Of a DNA stretch of 64,000 bases, positions 3,343-56,711 are shown piece by piece. How positions within the stretch are numbered: position 1 is the stretch's first letter; each line of letters begins with the position of its first letter. The position numbers and the translations under genes were made by a program. The notes below the pieces were generated by a model. It was not told where the DNA came from, did no database searches, and saw nothing but the letters and a program-made list of their open reading frames with translations. The stretch is from the NCBI RefSeq assembly GCF_000015105.1, contig NC_008610.1, positions 620,001-684,000 of the forward strand, in the 5' to 3' direction. Source of the DNA: Candidatus Ruthia magnifica str. Cm (Calyptogena magnifica) (GTDB lineage Bacteria; Pseudomonadota; Gammaproteobacteria; PS1; Pseudothioglobaceae).

Positions 3343-4425
3343 ATGGCAGATTTAACGAACAAGGAAATTGAAAATATTTTATCCAAGGTTGTTGATATTT
3401 ATACCGAACAAGATATTGTTTCTTCAAATATCATTAATGATATTAACATTGATGGTGATAAAATTCAGGTTAACATTGAACTTAATTATCCTGCTAATAG
3501 TTACCACGCTATCTTATCCAAAACCATTACCGATACATTAGCAAAAAATGGTATTAACCATGTTAGTGTTGATATTAAAACCAAAATTGTTAAGTACATA
3601 GTTCAAAAAGGTGTTGATGTCCTGCCAGAAGTTAAAAATATCATTGCAATTGCCTCGGGTAAAGGTGGCGTTGGCAAATCAACCACTGCAGTTAATTTAG
3701 CATTAGCACTACAAATGGAAGGCGCAAAAATTGCTATTTTAGATGCTGATATTTATGGCCCTTCTCAACCTAGAATGCTAGGCGTTAGCAAAGTAAAGCC
3801 AGAATCCACTGCTGAAGGAAAATTATTACCTATTTTGGGCCATGGTATACAAAGTATGTCAATCGGCTACTTGGTGGATGAAGACAATCCTATGATTTGG
3901 CGTGGTCCTATGGTTACTCAAGCTTTAGAGCAAATGCTAAGAGACACCTTATGGCGTGGTATTGATTATATGATCATTGACTTGCCACCAGGCACAGGTG
4001 ATACACAACTAACACTATCACAAAAAATTCCAGTAAGTGGTTCTGTGATTGTAACAACCCCGCAAGACATTGCACTAATTGATGCTAAAAAAGGCTTAAA
4101 AATGTTTGAAAAAGTTAACATTCCTATTTTGGGTATTGTTGAAAATATGTCATTACATATTTGCTCAGAATGCGGACACCAAGAGGCTATTTTCGGAACA
4201 GGTGGTGGTGAAACTATGGCTGCTGATGCGAATGTTGAATTTTTAGGTGCTCTCCCTTTAGAGATGGATATTCGAACTGATGTTGACGAAGGTACGCCAA
4301 CAGTTATTAAAGATCCAGAAGGCAGAATATCTGAGATTTATAAAGAAATAGCTAAAAAAGTCAGTGCCAAATTAACCCAACAATCTCGCGCAACCAATGC
4401 TTTCCCAAGTATTACCATTGAATAA
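3343..4425 (+). CDS. apbC: Mrp/ApbC-type P-loop ATPase, Fe-S cluster carrier
   Basis: A 360-residue cytosolic ATPase that binds and transfers Fe-S clusters. The N-terminal MIP18/DUF59-like domain covers roughly residues 1-95. It is followed by the deviant Walker A GKGGVGKST, a Walker B region around YMIIDLPPGTGD, and a CxxC (CSEC) near the C-terminal third that holds the bridging cluster in this family. I chose the ATG at 3343 (MADLTNKEIENI); an in-frame TTG at 3328 would add five residues and is less likely. It is divergent from metG. The isc operon on the opposite strand about 1 kb away fits the same Fe-S role. Confidence 0.92.
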   Translation: MADLTNKEIENILSKVVDIYTEQDIVSSNIINDINIDGDKIQVNIELNYPANSYHAILSKTITDTLAKNGINHVSVDIKTKIVKYIVQKGVDVLPEVKNIIAIASGKGGVGKSTTAVNLALALQMEGAKIAILDADIYGPSQPRMLGVSKVKPESTAEGKLLPILGHGIQSMSIGYLVDEDNPMIWRGPMVTQALEQMLRDTLWRGIDYMIIDLPPGTGDTQLTLSQKIPVSGSVIVTTPQDIALIDAKKGLKMFEKVNIPILGIVENMSLHICSECGHQEAIFGTGGGETMAADANVEFLGALPLEMDIRTDVDEGTPTVIKDPEGRISEIYKEIAKKVSAKLTQQSRATNAFPSITIE

Positions 4426-5204: not shown

Positions 5205-5470
5205 AGTGTACCATAAAGTTCTTTGAATAAGGTGGTGATTGTTAGCTATCTTTTGTGCTCAGTGTTTAAATATAGATAAGTAAATTTATAAAAAATATTG
5301 GTGTCTTATATGCTAATGGAGAATAAAAAGGTAGAAAAAGTGAGTGATGGCTTGAAGAAAGCTCGAGTGTCTGGGGTATTTTTGAACGTGCTTGTTGCTA
5401 AATTTTATGATATTAAGTGCTTCTTGTATTTGAAAGTATTTTTTAGTGTTTTACTTTAAAAAATAATATT

Positions 5471-5809
5471 TTAGTGGTTTTCAGAGACTTGGTTAATGGT
5501 GTATTTTGGAATTTCAATCACTAAATCAGTGTCACCCATAATCGTTTGGCAAGATAGACGAGAATTCGGGTCTAAGCCCCAAGCTTTGTCTAATAAATCA
5601 TCTTCTATTTCATCTGATTCCTCCACTGAATCAAACCCCTCACGTAGGTAAATATGACAAGTTGTACAAGCGTTTGACATTTCACAAGCGTGTTCGATTT
5701 CAATGTCATTAGCAAGTAGCGCATCGCAAACACTAACACCTGATTGAGTTTCAATAACAATGCCTTCTGAGCATAATTCATGATGGGGTAATACAATGAT
5801 TTGTGGCAT
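5471..5809 (-). CDS. fdx: ISC-type [2Fe-2S] ferredoxin
   Basis: A 112-residue adrenodoxin-type ferredoxin that supplies electrons during cluster assembly on IscU. The ligand cysteines are visible as CEMSNACTTC (C-x5-C-x2-C) plus a fourth in RLSCQTI. The start MPQIIVLPHHELC matches the family. It is the last gene of the isc operon, 23 bp after hscA. The length is normal for Isc ferredoxin. Confidence 0.95.
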   Translation of the reverse strand: MPQIIVLPHHELCSEGIVIETQSGVSVCDALLANDIEIEHACEMSNACTTCHIYLREGFDSVEESDEIEDDLLDKAWGLDPNSRLSCQTIMGDTDLVIEIPKYTINQVSENH

Positions 5810-47454: not shown

Positions 47455-48381
47455 TTAATTATATCCCAATGAAGCCAGTGCGCGCTTATCATTAGACCAA
47501 CCTTGTTTGACTTTGACCCAAAGTTTTAAGAATACTTTTCTATCTAAAAAGCCTTCAATACTTTTTCGTGCTTCAGTGCCAATTAGTTTGAGCATTACGC
47601 CCTTGTTGCCAATCACAATATTTTTTTGTGAGGCTTTGTCAACAAAAATACGGGCAGAAATTCGCTGTAGGTTGCCATTTTGTTCAAATTGTTCAATTTC
47701 AACAGTTAAATCATAAGGCAACTCATCTTTTAAATGACGCATAAGTTTTTCTCGAATAAATTCAGAAACAATAAATTTTTCACTTCTATTAGTTATATAA
47801 TCAGCATCAAAAATAAGAGCTTGTTCTGGTAAATAATGCAAAACTAATTTACGCAATGCGTGGATATCATTCTTTTTAAATGCCGATAAGGGAAATAAAT
47901 CTGTTGGTTGGTATTTTTGAGAAACTTTATCCAAAAATGGCAATACCTCTTTCGCATATTTTAATTTGTCAATTTTGTTAATACATAAAATAACGGGCGT
48001 CTTTATTCGAGTAATATGTTCTAAAACCCTTGAATCCTCTTTGGTCCATTTACCCACCTCTGTCAGCCACAAAATAACATCCACATTTGCTATGGTTGAA
48101 CTGGCCGCTTTGTTCATATAAGAATTAATAGCTTTGCAATTACCCATATGAATGCCTGGCGTATCTACAAATACCATTTGATAATCATCAGTTGTGTCAA
48201 TGACATGGATGCGGTGACGCGTAGTTTGTGGACGATGCGAAGTGATGGATAATTTCTGCCCAATTAATTCATTAACAAGCGTAGATTTACCAACATTAGG
48301 TCGTCCAACAACTGCAATAAAACCTGACTTAAAATTTAACTTAGTGGTTTTATTGCTTATTTTAAATTGTTTAGGATTCAT
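47455..48381 (-). CDS. era: GTPase Era
   Basis: A GTPase that binds 16S rRNA during 30S maturation. GTPase motifs GRPNVGKSTLV, DTPGIHMG and NKIDKLKY, then a C-terminal KH domain (RKVFLKLWVKVKQGWSNDKR). I chose the ATG at 48381, which overlaps the rnc stop (ATGA) and gives 308 residues; a longer frame from 48417 would lie inside rnc. Coupled to rnc as usual. Confidence 0.95.
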   Translation of the reverse strand: MNPKQFKISNKTTKLNFKSGFIAVVGRPNVGKSTLVNELIGQKLSITSHRPQTTRHRIHVIDTTDDYQMVFVDTPGIHMGNCKAINSYMNKAASSTIANVDVILWLTEVGKWTKEDSRVLEHITRIKTPVILCINKIDKLKYAKEVLPFLDKVSQKYQPTDLFPLSAFKKNDIHALRKLVLHYLPEQALIFDADYITNRSEKFIVSEFIREKLMRHLKDELPYDLTVEIEQFEQNGNLQRISARIFVDKASQKNIVIGNKGVMLKLIGTEARKSIEGFLDRKVFLKLWVKVKQGWSNDKRALASLGYN

Positions 48382-49043
48382 GATTCTTTTAATTTTTTTA
48401 ATAAGGTTTGTGCACAAGATTGTTCCGCTTTTTTAATGCTTTTGGCAGATTGACTAACTTGCAAGTTTTGGTCCTTTAAAAGGCAATTTATTGTAAATAT
48501 TGCATTATGATCTTTGCCTATTGTATCAGTGAGTTCATATTTTGGCAAAACATTACCATATTTTTGCAAGTATTCTTGTAATTGTGTCTTTGGATCCTTT
48601 AGCGAATCATCTGGACTAATATTGTTTAATAACATCTCAAAAAGATCTAAAACAACTGTACTCGTGGTCTCAAAATTAGAATCTAATAACACCGCACCAA
48701 ATATTGCCTCAATAGCATCTGCTTGAATAGATTCTCGTCTGTAACCACCGCTTTTCAATTCACCAAAGCCTAAAATTAAACTGTTTGATAATTCTAATCC
48801 AGCACTTAACTGTGTCAAGGTTTGATCTCTAACTAAGTGTGATCTTAATCGGGAGAGTTTACCTTCATCAATATTTGGAAAACGCTGATAAAGCTCTTTT
48901 GAGATTATCACACCTAAAATACTATCACCTAAAAATTCTAAACGTTCATTATTGTTTTTTCCCATGGAACAATGTGTTAAGGCAAGTTTTAACAAAGACA
49001 AATCTTTAAATTGATAATTAATTTTTTTTTGTAATTTTTTCAT
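48378..49043 (-). CDS. rnc: Ribonuclease III
   Basis: A 221-residue double-strand-specific RNase. The signature NERLEFLGDSILG holds the catalytic acidic residues; the C-terminal half is a double-stranded RNA-binding domain (DPKTQLQEYLQKYGNVLPKY). It is followed by era and is divergent, across 76 bp, from the Cas6-like gene. Confidence 0.96.
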   Translation of the reverse strand: MKKLQKKINYQFKDLSLLKLALTHCSMGKNNNERLEFLGDSILGVIISKELYQRFPNIDEGKLSRLRSHLVRDQTLTQLSAGLELSNSLILGFGELKSGGYRRESIQADAIEAIFGAVLLDSNFETTSTVVLDLFEMLLNNISPDDSLKDPKTQLQEYLQKYGNVLPKYELTDTIGKDHNAIFTINCLLKDQNLQVSQSAKSIKKAEQSCAQTLLKKLKES

Positions 49044-49119: not shown

Positions 49120-49782
49120 ATGTTTTGGCAAGAAGACACTAAAAAGGAACATTTTACGCTGCCTGAAACCATACAAGATGCGGTGTTTAATATCTTTGCT
49201 AAGATTTTACCTATTAATCATAGCTTTTTACTAGCACAAACACTACTTAAACACTTACCATGGCTTGATGAGGTGGATGCTGGTATATTTAATATTAGTG
49301 TGGCAGATGGTAATGGCTGGACACAAAATCACAAAGATGGGTTTTATTATCCTTCCAAACGCTCAAAACTAACCATTAGAGTGCCAAAAGACAAACTTTA
49401 TGAAACCCAGCAATTACTTGGAAAAACACTAGATTTAGGCAAATATCAAATAAAAATTATCAAATCTTTGAAACCAAAATTACTCAGTGACATGCCTGTA
49501 CTGTTTTCAAAAAATATTGCTTGTAATGAAGCAATGAGTGAAGACGATTTCTTACAGGTGACTTTTGAACAATTAAAAATACTTGGTATTTCTGTTAAAA
49601 AAATGATGGTTGGTCTTGAAAAGAACATTAAAACCGACACTCACATTATTCACACTCGTTCACTAATGATAGCTGATTTAAAAAAAGATGAATCAGTATT
49701 ATTACAAGAAAAAGGTCTTGGTGATTATCGATTATTAGGCTGTGGGTTGTTTATTCCTCACAAAGACATCACAAGCATTTAA
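49120..49782 (+). CDS. Stand-alone Cas6/Cmx6-like (type I-MYXAN style) RNA-processing protein
   Basis: 220 residues. The wording follows the Cas6/Cmx6 family: an N-terminal ferredoxin-like strand then ILPINHSFLLAQTLLKHLPW ('ip.dHgy.Ly.als..lP'), SKRSKLTIRVPKDKL ('krS.L.lRlP'), LLGKTLDLGKYQIKI ('LaGk.L.i....i'), FLQVTFEQLKILGI, and the glycine-rich C terminus EKGLGDYRLLGCGLFIPHKD ('GLG..r.mGCGiFvPhk'). Cas6 enzymes cut CRISPR precursor RNA; a histidine early in the protein (INHSF) is at the family's usual catalytic position. There is no CRISPR array and no other cas gene in the window. The frame is intact and starts with its own promoter-like box. Function in this setting is unknown. Confidence 0.75.
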   Translation: MFWQEDTKKEHFTLPETIQDAVFNIFAKILPINHSFLLAQTLLKHLPWLDEVDAGIFNISVADGNGWTQNHKDGFYYPSKRSKLTIRVPKDKLYETQQLLGKTLDLGKYQIKIIKSLKPKLLSDMPVLFSKNIACNEAMSEDDFLQVTFEQLKILGISVKKMMVGLEKNIKTDTHIIHTRSLMIADLKKDESVLLQEKGLGDYRLLGCGLFIPHKDITSI

Positions 49783-49849
49783 CTTACACTAAAAATATTT
49801 TTGTACTACAATTAATTAACAACTTCTAAAAATAAATTGTGCGTGCTTT

Positions 49850-50750
49850 AATATATTATTTTCTTTACTTCTTTCATTTTAATCTATTGCAATTAAATCT
49901 TTAGGTGTCAAAATCGTTCACGAGATGCCTAATTGGTTTAAAGCTTCTTTTGTAGATTTTTCTGAAGGTTTGAAAAGTAGGTAGCAAACAATAACAAATA
50001 TATGATGATTTACTTTTATCAAAATAGCTGCCCTTATTACACTAAATTTATTGAAGATAATTTTCACAATACTTCTTTATAGTCTAAAAACTACAAAAAT
50101 ATTTTGACATTTTTGACTAATTGTCAAGGTAAAGAATTGATGGAAAAATAATTTTCAGCTTTGATGAAAGTACAATTCACCTCCAATCAACGTACTTAAA
50201 TTCAATGGCTATCAATCAGTTGAAAATTTAAATCAAGGTTTTTACAATTATACTAATAACCTTAAAAAAAAGATAAAACGGATAACCTAAACAAAAATTC
50301 ATTATTAAAAACAGAACCACATATGCTATCTCGTAGAAAAACCTTGCATATACAAAACTATTTAGTTGTTTTTTGAAGAGCCTAATTGTTAAGAATGCAA
50401 CACCTTTTATCAAACGCTCATGCAGATAGAACAAACCAAAGCCTTATTAAAAACCATGCAAATGGTATAACTCAATACTCTATCAGACACTAAAATTATT
50501 ATTCCATCAGATAAATGAACCACCCCTAAAAAATGGAATGAAGATTTAAAACTTACTTATAAGCTAGCCATTATGTTTTTAAAAAAACAAGATAAAGAAA
50601 TTATCAGAAAAGATGCTTTTTAAGGCTTATCACTTCCACGGTATTATGACTTACATCACTTCAGGGAATACAAACACCAACTAAACTTTCAGTGTTATTT
50701 ATAAGATAAGTTTTACGCTCAAGATATTACAGTGAATATTTAGAAATAAT
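49850..50750 (+). pseudogene. Remnant of a two-domain thioredoxin-like protein (SoxW-like)
   Basis: No intact gene between the Cas6-like gene and thyA. Plus-strand pieces in order: LGVKIVHEMPNWFKASFVDF, NNNKYMMIYFYQNSCPYYTK ('yFhQdgCPYC.k'), VQFT with FNGYQSVENLNQGFYNY ('TPtl.F...rlnGYr.pe.f'), then a second domain YLVVFEEPNCxECNTFYQ, LNTLSDTKIIIPSD, LTYKLAIMFLKKQDKEIIRK and YHFHGIMTYITSG. The first CxxC has become CPYY. Many stops interrupt it. The small minus-strand frame at 50228-50434 is fortuitous. Confidence 0.7.
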
Positions 50751-51545
50751 TTAAATTGCAACTGTCGCTTTAATGTATGCATCAAACACGTAATTTATAA
50801 ACTCAAAATCCTCAAAATTGTAATCAAAAATACTGTCAGGCTTGTTATTGATTTTAAGTGTTGCTAGTGTTTTTGGAGTGCGAGCTAATTGTATTTCTAC
50901 TTGTTTAGTATGATTGGAATAAATATGACAATCACCGCCACTCCAAATAAAATCACCCACTTCCAAATCACACTGTTGCGCCATCATGTGGGTTAGTAAT
51001 GCATATGAAGCAATATTAAATGGTACACCAAGGAAAACATCTGCACTTCTTTGATACAACTGACAAGATAGCTTCCCAAGCGCAACGTAAAACTGAAAAA
51101 ATGCATGACAAGGTGGTAATGCCATATTTTCCAATTCACCAACATTCCAAGCTGAAACAATAATTCTACGAGAATCTGGCGTATTCTTAATTTGCTCTAT
51201 CACTTGCATAATTTGGTCAATACTTTCACCTCTAACATTTTGCCAATTTCGCCACTGTACACCATAAATTGGGCCTAAATCCCCGTTTTTATCTGCCCAT
51301 TCATTCCAAATTCGCACACCATTTTCTTGTAAGTATTTAATATTAGTAGCACCGCTAAGAAACCACAACAACTCGTGCACAACTGAAGGTAAGTGTACAC
51401 GTTTGGTGGTTATAAGTGGAAATCCATCAGATAAATCAAAACGCATTTGGTATCCAAACAAGCTGGTTGTTCCTATGCCTGTTCTATCGGTTTTATTGGT
51501 GCCAGTATTTTTAACCAGCCTTAAAAAATCTAAGTATTGTTTCAC
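50751..51545 (-). CDS. thyA: Thymidylate synthase
   Basis: 264 residues, same length as E. coli ThyA. It makes dTMP from dUMP using methylene-tetrahydrofolate. The active cysteine is in [12 protein letters not shown], and [20 protein letters not shown] and [20 protein letters not shown] are signature blocks. Overlaps the lgt stop by 4 bp. Confidence 0.97.
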
Positions 51546-56367: not shown

Positions 56368-56384
56368 AATTTATGGAGAAAGAA

Positions 56385-56711
56385 ATGGCATTAGCTAATT
56401 TAGAAAGAGATGACCATGGTTACCTAAAAGATCTTAATGAGTGGAACGAAGACATTGCTCGTGAGTTGGCAGAAGAAGAAGGTGTCAACTTAACAGATGA
56501 TAGCTTTAAATTAATTAATTTTTTACGTAATGAATACATCAATAATAATGCCAACCAGCCTAACGAGCGTAATATAGTTAAAGGCTTAAAAGATAACTGG
56601 AAAGGCAAGTTAAAAACTAAAGAGTTATATACATTATTTCCAAAAGGCCCTGCCAAGCAAGCGGGTAAAATTGCTGGATTACCTGAAACTAAACGTAAAG
56701 GTGGTTATTAA
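56385..56711 (+). CDS. DsrC/TusE-family protein lacking the C-terminal cysteines (RspA-like)
   Basis: 108 residues from the ATG at 56385, which has GGAGAAAGAA placed as a ribosome site; an upstream ATG at 56373 overlaps that site. DDHGYLKDLNEWNEDIAREL and the C-terminal arm LFPKGPAKQAGKIAGLPETK are DsrC-family text. Redox-active DsrC carries two cysteines in this arm ('GPAKQGCKIAGLP..tGCV'); here the first position reads AGK and the last RKGGY, so both are absent. Such cysteine-less homologues (RspA group) are thought regulatory rather than sulfur carriers. A helix-turn-helix is part of the fold. Confidence 0.88.
   Translation: MALANLERDDHGYLKDLNEWNEDIARELAEEEGVNLTDDSFKLINFLRNEYINNNANQPNERNIVKGLKDNWKGKLKTKELYTLFPKGPAKQAGKIAGLPETKRKGGY

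Follow-up and report, generated by a model that had tools for sequence, protein, structure and literature searches.

A Cas6-family gene outside CRISPR, a probable accessory of reverse-Dsr sulfur oxidation in Gammaproteobacteria

Cas6 is known as the enzyme that processes crRNA, and the genome of Candidatus Ruthia magnifica str. Cm raises the question of what a Cas6-like gene is doing where no CRISPR system was found to explain it. The gene lies in a 64-kb stretch of this genome (hereafter the window, meaning the whole stretch of DNA that was analysed), and the source genome itself is a single contig of 1,160,782 bases. An initial annotation, made from the sequence of the window, had recognized a Cas6/Cmx6 layout in the product and had proposed a domesticated role in RNA processing, partly because the gene stands head to head with rnc. 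The following features are referred to below:

48378..49043, minus strand: rnc (RNase III), head to head with the Cas6-like gene; its neighbour in the window's own family alone
49120..49782, plus strand: Cas6-family (Cas6/Cmx6-like) gene, intact frame of 220 aa, characterized by Pfam, NCBIfam, PADLOC, predicted fold and dN/dS
49219..49221, plus strand: codon of His34 (CAT), a conserved His near the N-terminus, in the position of the catalytic His of Cas6
49783..50760, plus strand: decayed thioredoxin-like gene, directly downstream of the Cas6-like gene, with an open counterpart in the relative L001
56373..56711, plus strand: DsrC paralogue of 112 aa without C-terminal Cys, ending in GLPETKRKGGY, with a profile match to PF04358

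Family, predicted fold and conservation of the frame

We compared the 220-residue product with profiles of the Cas6 family, and both its Cas6/Cmx6 layout and its intact frame at 49120-49782 on the plus strand were confirmed. The Pfam family Cas6 (PF09559) matched with 142 bits (E = 2.9e-41), well over the cut-off of 26.7, and the PADLOC Cas6 profile matched with E = 2.7e-67. Against the NCBIfam equivalog TIGR02807 (cas6_cmx6) the protein scored 98.6 bits and remained narrowly below the cut-off of 98.85, which two of its sampled relatives exceeded with 115.8 and 126.4 bits. Automatic annotation by TIGR02807 would label such genes as CRISPR genes where no CRISPR system explains them. The closest named relative among the matches came from a Candidatus Ruthia MAG (89% identity), and the best sequence match in the PDB was Cas6 of a type I-B CRISPR-associated transposon (CAST; PDB 8fcj and 8fcu, E = 2.2e-4).

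An AlphaFold2 model, built from 11 sequences and of middling confidence (mean pLDDT 67.8), pointed to the same protein. Foldseek ranked the type I-B CAST Cas6 first (E = 2.8e-11), and a structural aligner likewise gave it as the best match (Z = 17.6 over 187 residues), with the remaining Cas6 entries at Z = 12.9-10.7. The top structural matches were thus all Cas6 chains, as expected of the double ferredoxin-like Cas6 fold, within the confidence of the model. Judged by sequence and predicted fold, the window gene is a true member of the Cas6 family. The type I-B CAST Cas6, its best structural and best PDB sequence match, is according to the record title a subunit of a guide-RNA complex, whereas such partners were not found for the window gene.

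The frame is also maintained. Its dN/dS relative to 11 relatives was 0.09-0.21 (NG86), and YN00 gave 0.19-0.30 for the nine computable pairs, with dS saturated for the relatives L002 and L006; by these ratios, the Cas6-like frame is under purifying selection. Directly downstream, window positions 49783-50760 aligned with the thioredoxin-like locus of L001 at 72% DNA identity, and the window copy carried many stops and gaps where the L001 copy is open. Decay has hit the downstream gene yet spared the Cas6-like gene, which bears out for this neighbour the contrast between an intact frame and decayed accessory genes drawn in the initial annotation. A match to the thioredoxin-like gene was present in 16 of 19 own-family loci.

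The head-to-head arrangement with rnc (48378-49043, minus strand) was correctly described, and it is conserved within the family: rnc adjoins the gene in 19 of 19 own-family loci but was present in 0 of 87 loci from the rest of the class. The use of rnc as a clue to function is accordingly unsupported, and we rejected rnc as a functional partner.

CRISPR context

A script-based scan of the 64-kb window found no CRISPR-like repeat array, in agreement with the initial reading, and an Rfam scan of the window at gathering thresholds returned three tRNAs and nothing else. Profile searches of the whole source genome gave no match to Cas1 (PF01867), to DevR/Cas7 (PF01905) or to PF10040, so the partner genes cas1 and cas7/devR of a type I-MYXAN system were not found there. 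As far as the searches for these three families reach, we rejected a CRISPR system elsewhere in the source genome as the explanation of the gene; the array scan covered the window.

The same separation from CRISPR was seen across the class. None of 99 loci scanned contained a cas-like array; the lone flagged locus, L173, holds a 69-base tandem repeat (positions 5276-5546) that is not a CRISPR array. Among 369 gammaproteobacterial genomes, the gene and Cas1 occurred together in 50, the gene only in 68, Cas1 only in 85 and neither in 166 (phi 0.08, p = 0.13), showing that the presence of the gene is not tied to Cas1. These figures bear on the idea that the protein is a spare crRNA-processing enzyme that serves the CRISPR arrays of other loci in trans. 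Membership in the Cas6 family and the Cas1 match in 50 of 118 gene-carrying genomes would suit it, but with 68 of the 118 lacking such a match, no association between the two genes, no Cas1 in the source genome and no array at the scanned loci, we consider it highly improbable. As a separate observation, a genome of the same genus that keeps the Cas6-like gene has a Cas1 match containing stop codons (G009:C1:859020-859609).

The nearest known relatives make the difference in setting plain. Cas6/Cmx6 of type I-MYXAN (I-B) systems (TIGR02807, PF09559) belongs to the same sequence family as the window protein and agrees with it in predicted fold and in the N-terminal His motif; in contrast to these systems, no cas3, cas5, cas7 or cas8 adjoins the gammaproteobacterial gene. 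For cyanobacterial Cas6, cas3 and other cas genes adjoin cas6 in six of seven records examined. A plasmid search yielded eight cyanobacterial Cas6 proteins, seven of them with a query coverage of at least 80%, as well as a weak Rhizobium match (E = 0.3). These seven were 25.6-31.2% identical to the representative gammaproteobacterial protein used, and in a quick tree, which has long branches and no known root, they split from 123 gammaproteobacterial proteins with an SH-aLRT of 99; the direction of the change of role between CRISPR Cas6 and the gammaproteobacterial branch is something we infer. One of the plasmid genes, a Cas6/Cmx6 gene from Gloeobacter (L230, 7974-8765), is the only cas gene annotated over 16.6 kb and lies near genes of the PAPS-reductase and cupin families; it is perhaps another Cas6 outside CRISPR.

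Two kinds of mobile cargo were considered and rejected: phage cargo, with no relative in a viral-contig scan and none in phages, and plasmid cargo, with plasmid matches confined to the cyanobacterial Cas6 proteins and the weak Rhizobium protein and with none from a DNA search of plasmids using a stretch of L141.

Since the protein belongs to the Cas6 family, no CRISPR locus was found to account for it and the frame is under selection, an RNA role independent of CRISPR is the natural reading. The proposal of a domesticated RNA role is thus supported in part, having lost its basis in rnc; the gene is also no peculiarity of Ruthia, as its distribution makes clear.

Occurrence and linkage with dsr genes

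Of 58 near relatives, 34 carry PF09559, as do 118 of the 369 genomes sampled throughout Gammaproteobacteria, with one gene per genome (G298, counted among the carriers, shows two neighbouring pieces). The distribution of the gene closely followed that of dsrA. With dsrA called by TIGR02064 at E = 1e-30 or better, both genes were found in 111 of the 369 genomes, the gene only in 7, dsrA only in 8 and neither in 243 (phi 0.91), and with the curated cut-off the corresponding numbers were 106, 12, 6 and 245 (phi 0.89); these genomes share ancestry, so that such co-occurrence statistics overstate independence and their p values should not be read literally. In this table dsrA accompanies the gene in every single-contig genome that carries it (13 of 13), and all eight dsrA-only genomes are in more than one contig.

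Most of the 15 exceptions with a single gene coincide with contig ends (11 genomes; contigs were examined for 14, leaving out G272, which is 55% complete). On the gene-only side, G352 retains a dsrA fragment at a contig edge beside the cluster, and in G103, G129, G351, G221 (L105) and G162 (L144) the contig ends at the expected place of dsrA. On the dsrA-only side, the contig of G158 breaks within the 235-aa gene, which adjoins dsrQ and dsrA, and stops just short of the expected site, and in G106, G115, G145 and G242 it ends within about 0.4 kb on the expected side of the gene, or inside dsrA. We do not assign G333, G246, G388 and G272 to contig ends: the family of G333 (gene only) keeps the gene away from dsr, and the gene is absent from the expected side of dsrA over several kb in G246 and over 1.8 kb in G388.

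A similar pattern was seen in the window's own family, where 29 of 37 genomes have both genes (counting G015, G016 and G027, in which dsrA is present as fragments only), three have dsrA only (G025, G028 and G032; 86-93% complete), five have neither (G019 and the four genomes of genus g2), and no genome carries the gene with no trace of dsrA. Both genes are also missing in G304, G318 and G169 of families f2, f33 and f134. The gene is thus present together with dsrA as part of the gammaproteobacterial rDsr gene set; it is a single-copy feature of dsrA-carrying gammaproteobacteria and not a Ruthia or symbiont event. The tie is confined to this class: in a phylum-wide draw of 200 genomes, 45 passed the dsrA cut-off, all but one of which (44) belong to other classes, and PF09559 was found in the source genome alone. 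With these 44 dsrA genomes of other classes lacking PF09559, the protein is not a requirement of Dsr chemistry in itself. Across a bacterial class, the gene follows dissimilatory sulfur oxidation almost one to one, which makes it a testable case of a metabolic housekeeping role for a Cas-family protein.

We next describe the neighbourhood of the gene, for which 105 loci were clustered and profile HMMs from the clusters were used to rescore 87 loci, which come from the 114 gene-carrying genomes of the class that lie beyond the own family. dsrA lies near the gene in 69 of the 87 loci, always on the opposite strand in a divergent arrangement. Frequent neighbours on the strand of the gene are one for a protein of about 64 aa (75 of 87 loci, within the bases examined), a DsrC-type gene (71 of 87, a number that refers to the DsrC family as such, since the profiles of DsrC and its Cys-less paralogue overlap) and a dsrQ/tauD-like gene (65 of 87). 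Genes for proteins of about 67 aa and of 235 aa were found in 45 and 33 of the 87 loci, and neither these nor the ~64-aa gene belong to a Pfam or NCBIfam family. Small conserved genes of the ~64-aa and ~67-aa types can be seen beside the cas6-like gene in L228 (5719-5907 and 7223-7426) and in other loci. Eighteen of the 87 loci lack dsrA, six of them cut by contig ends (L080, L081, L087, L105, L106 and L144), and L098, L122, L123 and L159 have no usual neighbour within the stretch examined. The linkage does not extend to the window itself, as dsrA was found in 0 of 19 examined stretches of the own family.

The Cys-less DsrC paralogue at 56373-56711 (PF04358), one of three DsrC-family genes in the source genome, shares the strand of the Cas6-like gene and sits 7.25 kb further downstream, and its counterpart usually follows the cas6-like gene in other lineages. 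We take RspA to be the name for such Cys-less DsrC proteins. Within the own family the paralogue was found in four of 19 loci (the window, L001, L007 and L169), on the strand of the Cas6-like gene and 6.4-8.0 kb downstream of it; the 8-kb flanks of L002, L004 and L006 yielded none, and the remaining own-family flanks are shorter. The tauD-like gene, a member of PF02668 with dsrA on one side and the cas6-like gene on the other, very probably corresponds to dsrQ, a tauD-like gene beside dsr that PMC7596348 describes with a citation of Lenk et al. 2012. The dsrQ passage of that paper names no Cas6-like gene, and the word "CRISPR" is absent from its main text. Literature searches covering open-licence papers found no publication on the Cas6-like gene. 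The tie to sulfur oxidation also directs attention to an unstudied gene group next to a familiar operon of the sulfur cycle, among free-living as well as symbiotic sulfur oxidizers.

It could be argued that the role of the protein, in RNA processes generally or in defence, is unrelated to sulfur and that the same old gammaproteobacterial lineages merely inherited it along with dsr. The other-class dsrA genomes without PF09559 are compatible with such a role, as are L098, L122, L123 and L159, which lack dsrA as well as the usual neighbours, and the position of the gene by rnc in the own family; however, the divergent linkage to dsrA and the concerted absence of both genes from the dsrA-less members of gene-carrying families (g2 and G019; G304, G318 and G169) make it improbable. 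We instead favour, with a probability of about 0.6, a Cas6-fold endoribonuclease outside CRISPR that is passed on vertically and serves as an accessory of gammaproteobacterial sulfur oxidation by the reverse-Dsr (rDsr) pathway.

Putative active site and candidate RNA substrates

The N-terminal His of the family (His34 in the window protein), which we take to correspond to the catalytic His of Cas6, is kept in 122 of 123 distinct gammaproteobacterial proteins, the sole exception, L139, having Asn instead, and G207 and G209 of the glycine-rich C-terminus are present in 123 of 123. The proteins thus combine the N-terminal catalytic-type His and the glycine-rich C-terminal motif of the Cas6 family, and their Asp-His motif is also visible in cyanobacterial Cas6 sequences. 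Some Cas6-like proteins bind RNA without cutting it, and the Cas6 fold is an RNA-binding fold. A protein that has lost cutting and acts as an RNA-binding regulator or chaperone, with a dsr leader or a hairpin between genes among its conceivable targets and with conserved residues that serve structure and binding, would accommodate the Asn of L139, but seems to us rather unlikely, as the retention of the His across many families suggests retained catalysis. In the endoribonuclease reading that we prefer, the Cas6-like protein would work apart from CRISPR immunity and probably binds and cuts hairpin RNA, and the expression of sulfur-oxidation genes may be tuned by this cutting.

In many lineages the gene belongs to one small same-strand group, namely a dsrQ/tauD-like gene, the ~64-aa gene, sometimes the 235-aa gene, the cas6-like gene and the Cys-less DsrC paralogue, divergent from dsrABEFHC; in the window's family its place is next to rnc, where in the window it has been retained despite the decay of its downstream neighbour. 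Rather more tentatively, and at somewhat less than even odds, the whole vertically inherited Cas6 branch outside CRISPR could be an rDsr RNA-processing enzyme that forms an RNA-level dsr control unit with the Cys-less DsrC paralogue, DsrQ and the ~64-aa protein, for example by cutting a hairpin between dsrA and dsrB. For the oxidation of stored sulfur, a major pathway of the sulfur cycle, the gene points to a partner at the RNA level that has been overlooked.

The dsrA-dsrB hairpin is one candidate substrate, with mixed evidence. Hairpins in the gaps between dsr genes were scored by script against mononucleotide shuffles, after gaps of <20 bases and, in the set from outside the class, identical gaps had been dropped. 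The dsrA-dsrB gap (median 84 bases over 73 loci) often contains a strong stem-loop, the sequence of which varies between genomes; that of the source genome is TTAGGTGAA-CGTAAAT-TTCACCTAA. The core pattern of this stem-loop, AGGTGA-N4..11-TCACCT, occurs in one place of the source genome, this gap, and a reversed control pattern also occurs once. The hairpin was significant in 43 of 71 loci of the class outside the own family, in 12 of 25 own-family loci and in 3 of 20 loci from outside the class, which are dsr loci of genomes without the gene (43/71 vs 3/20, Fisher's exact test, 3e-4). The 71 loci include five genomes in which the gene was not found (L214, L215, L217, L218 and L220; two with the hairpin) and the 25 include three (L190, L191 and L192; two with the hairpin), leaving 41 of 66 and 10 of 22 among gene-carrying genomes. 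Conversely, the hairpin was absent or not significant in 28 of the 71 and 13 of the 25 loci, and it was lacking in the own-family gene carriers G014, G018, G020, G021, G023, G024, G030, G031 and G035.

Hairpins were less frequent in other dsr gaps (dsrB-dsrE, 8 of 29; before dsrA, 17 of 80; dsrH-dsrC, 4 of 45) and directly beside cas6 (8 of 86 and 8 of 87 outside the own family; 2 of 18 and 0 of 18 within it). After dsrC, a strong hairpin was as common as that between dsrA and dsrB (37 of 49 loci), and the two showed no resemblance within a genome (22 genomes, p = 0.75). The hairpins after dsrC suggest partial termination at this site. In the source genome, the hairpin after dsrC (L221, about 3520-3550) leads into a run of T and resembles a terminator.
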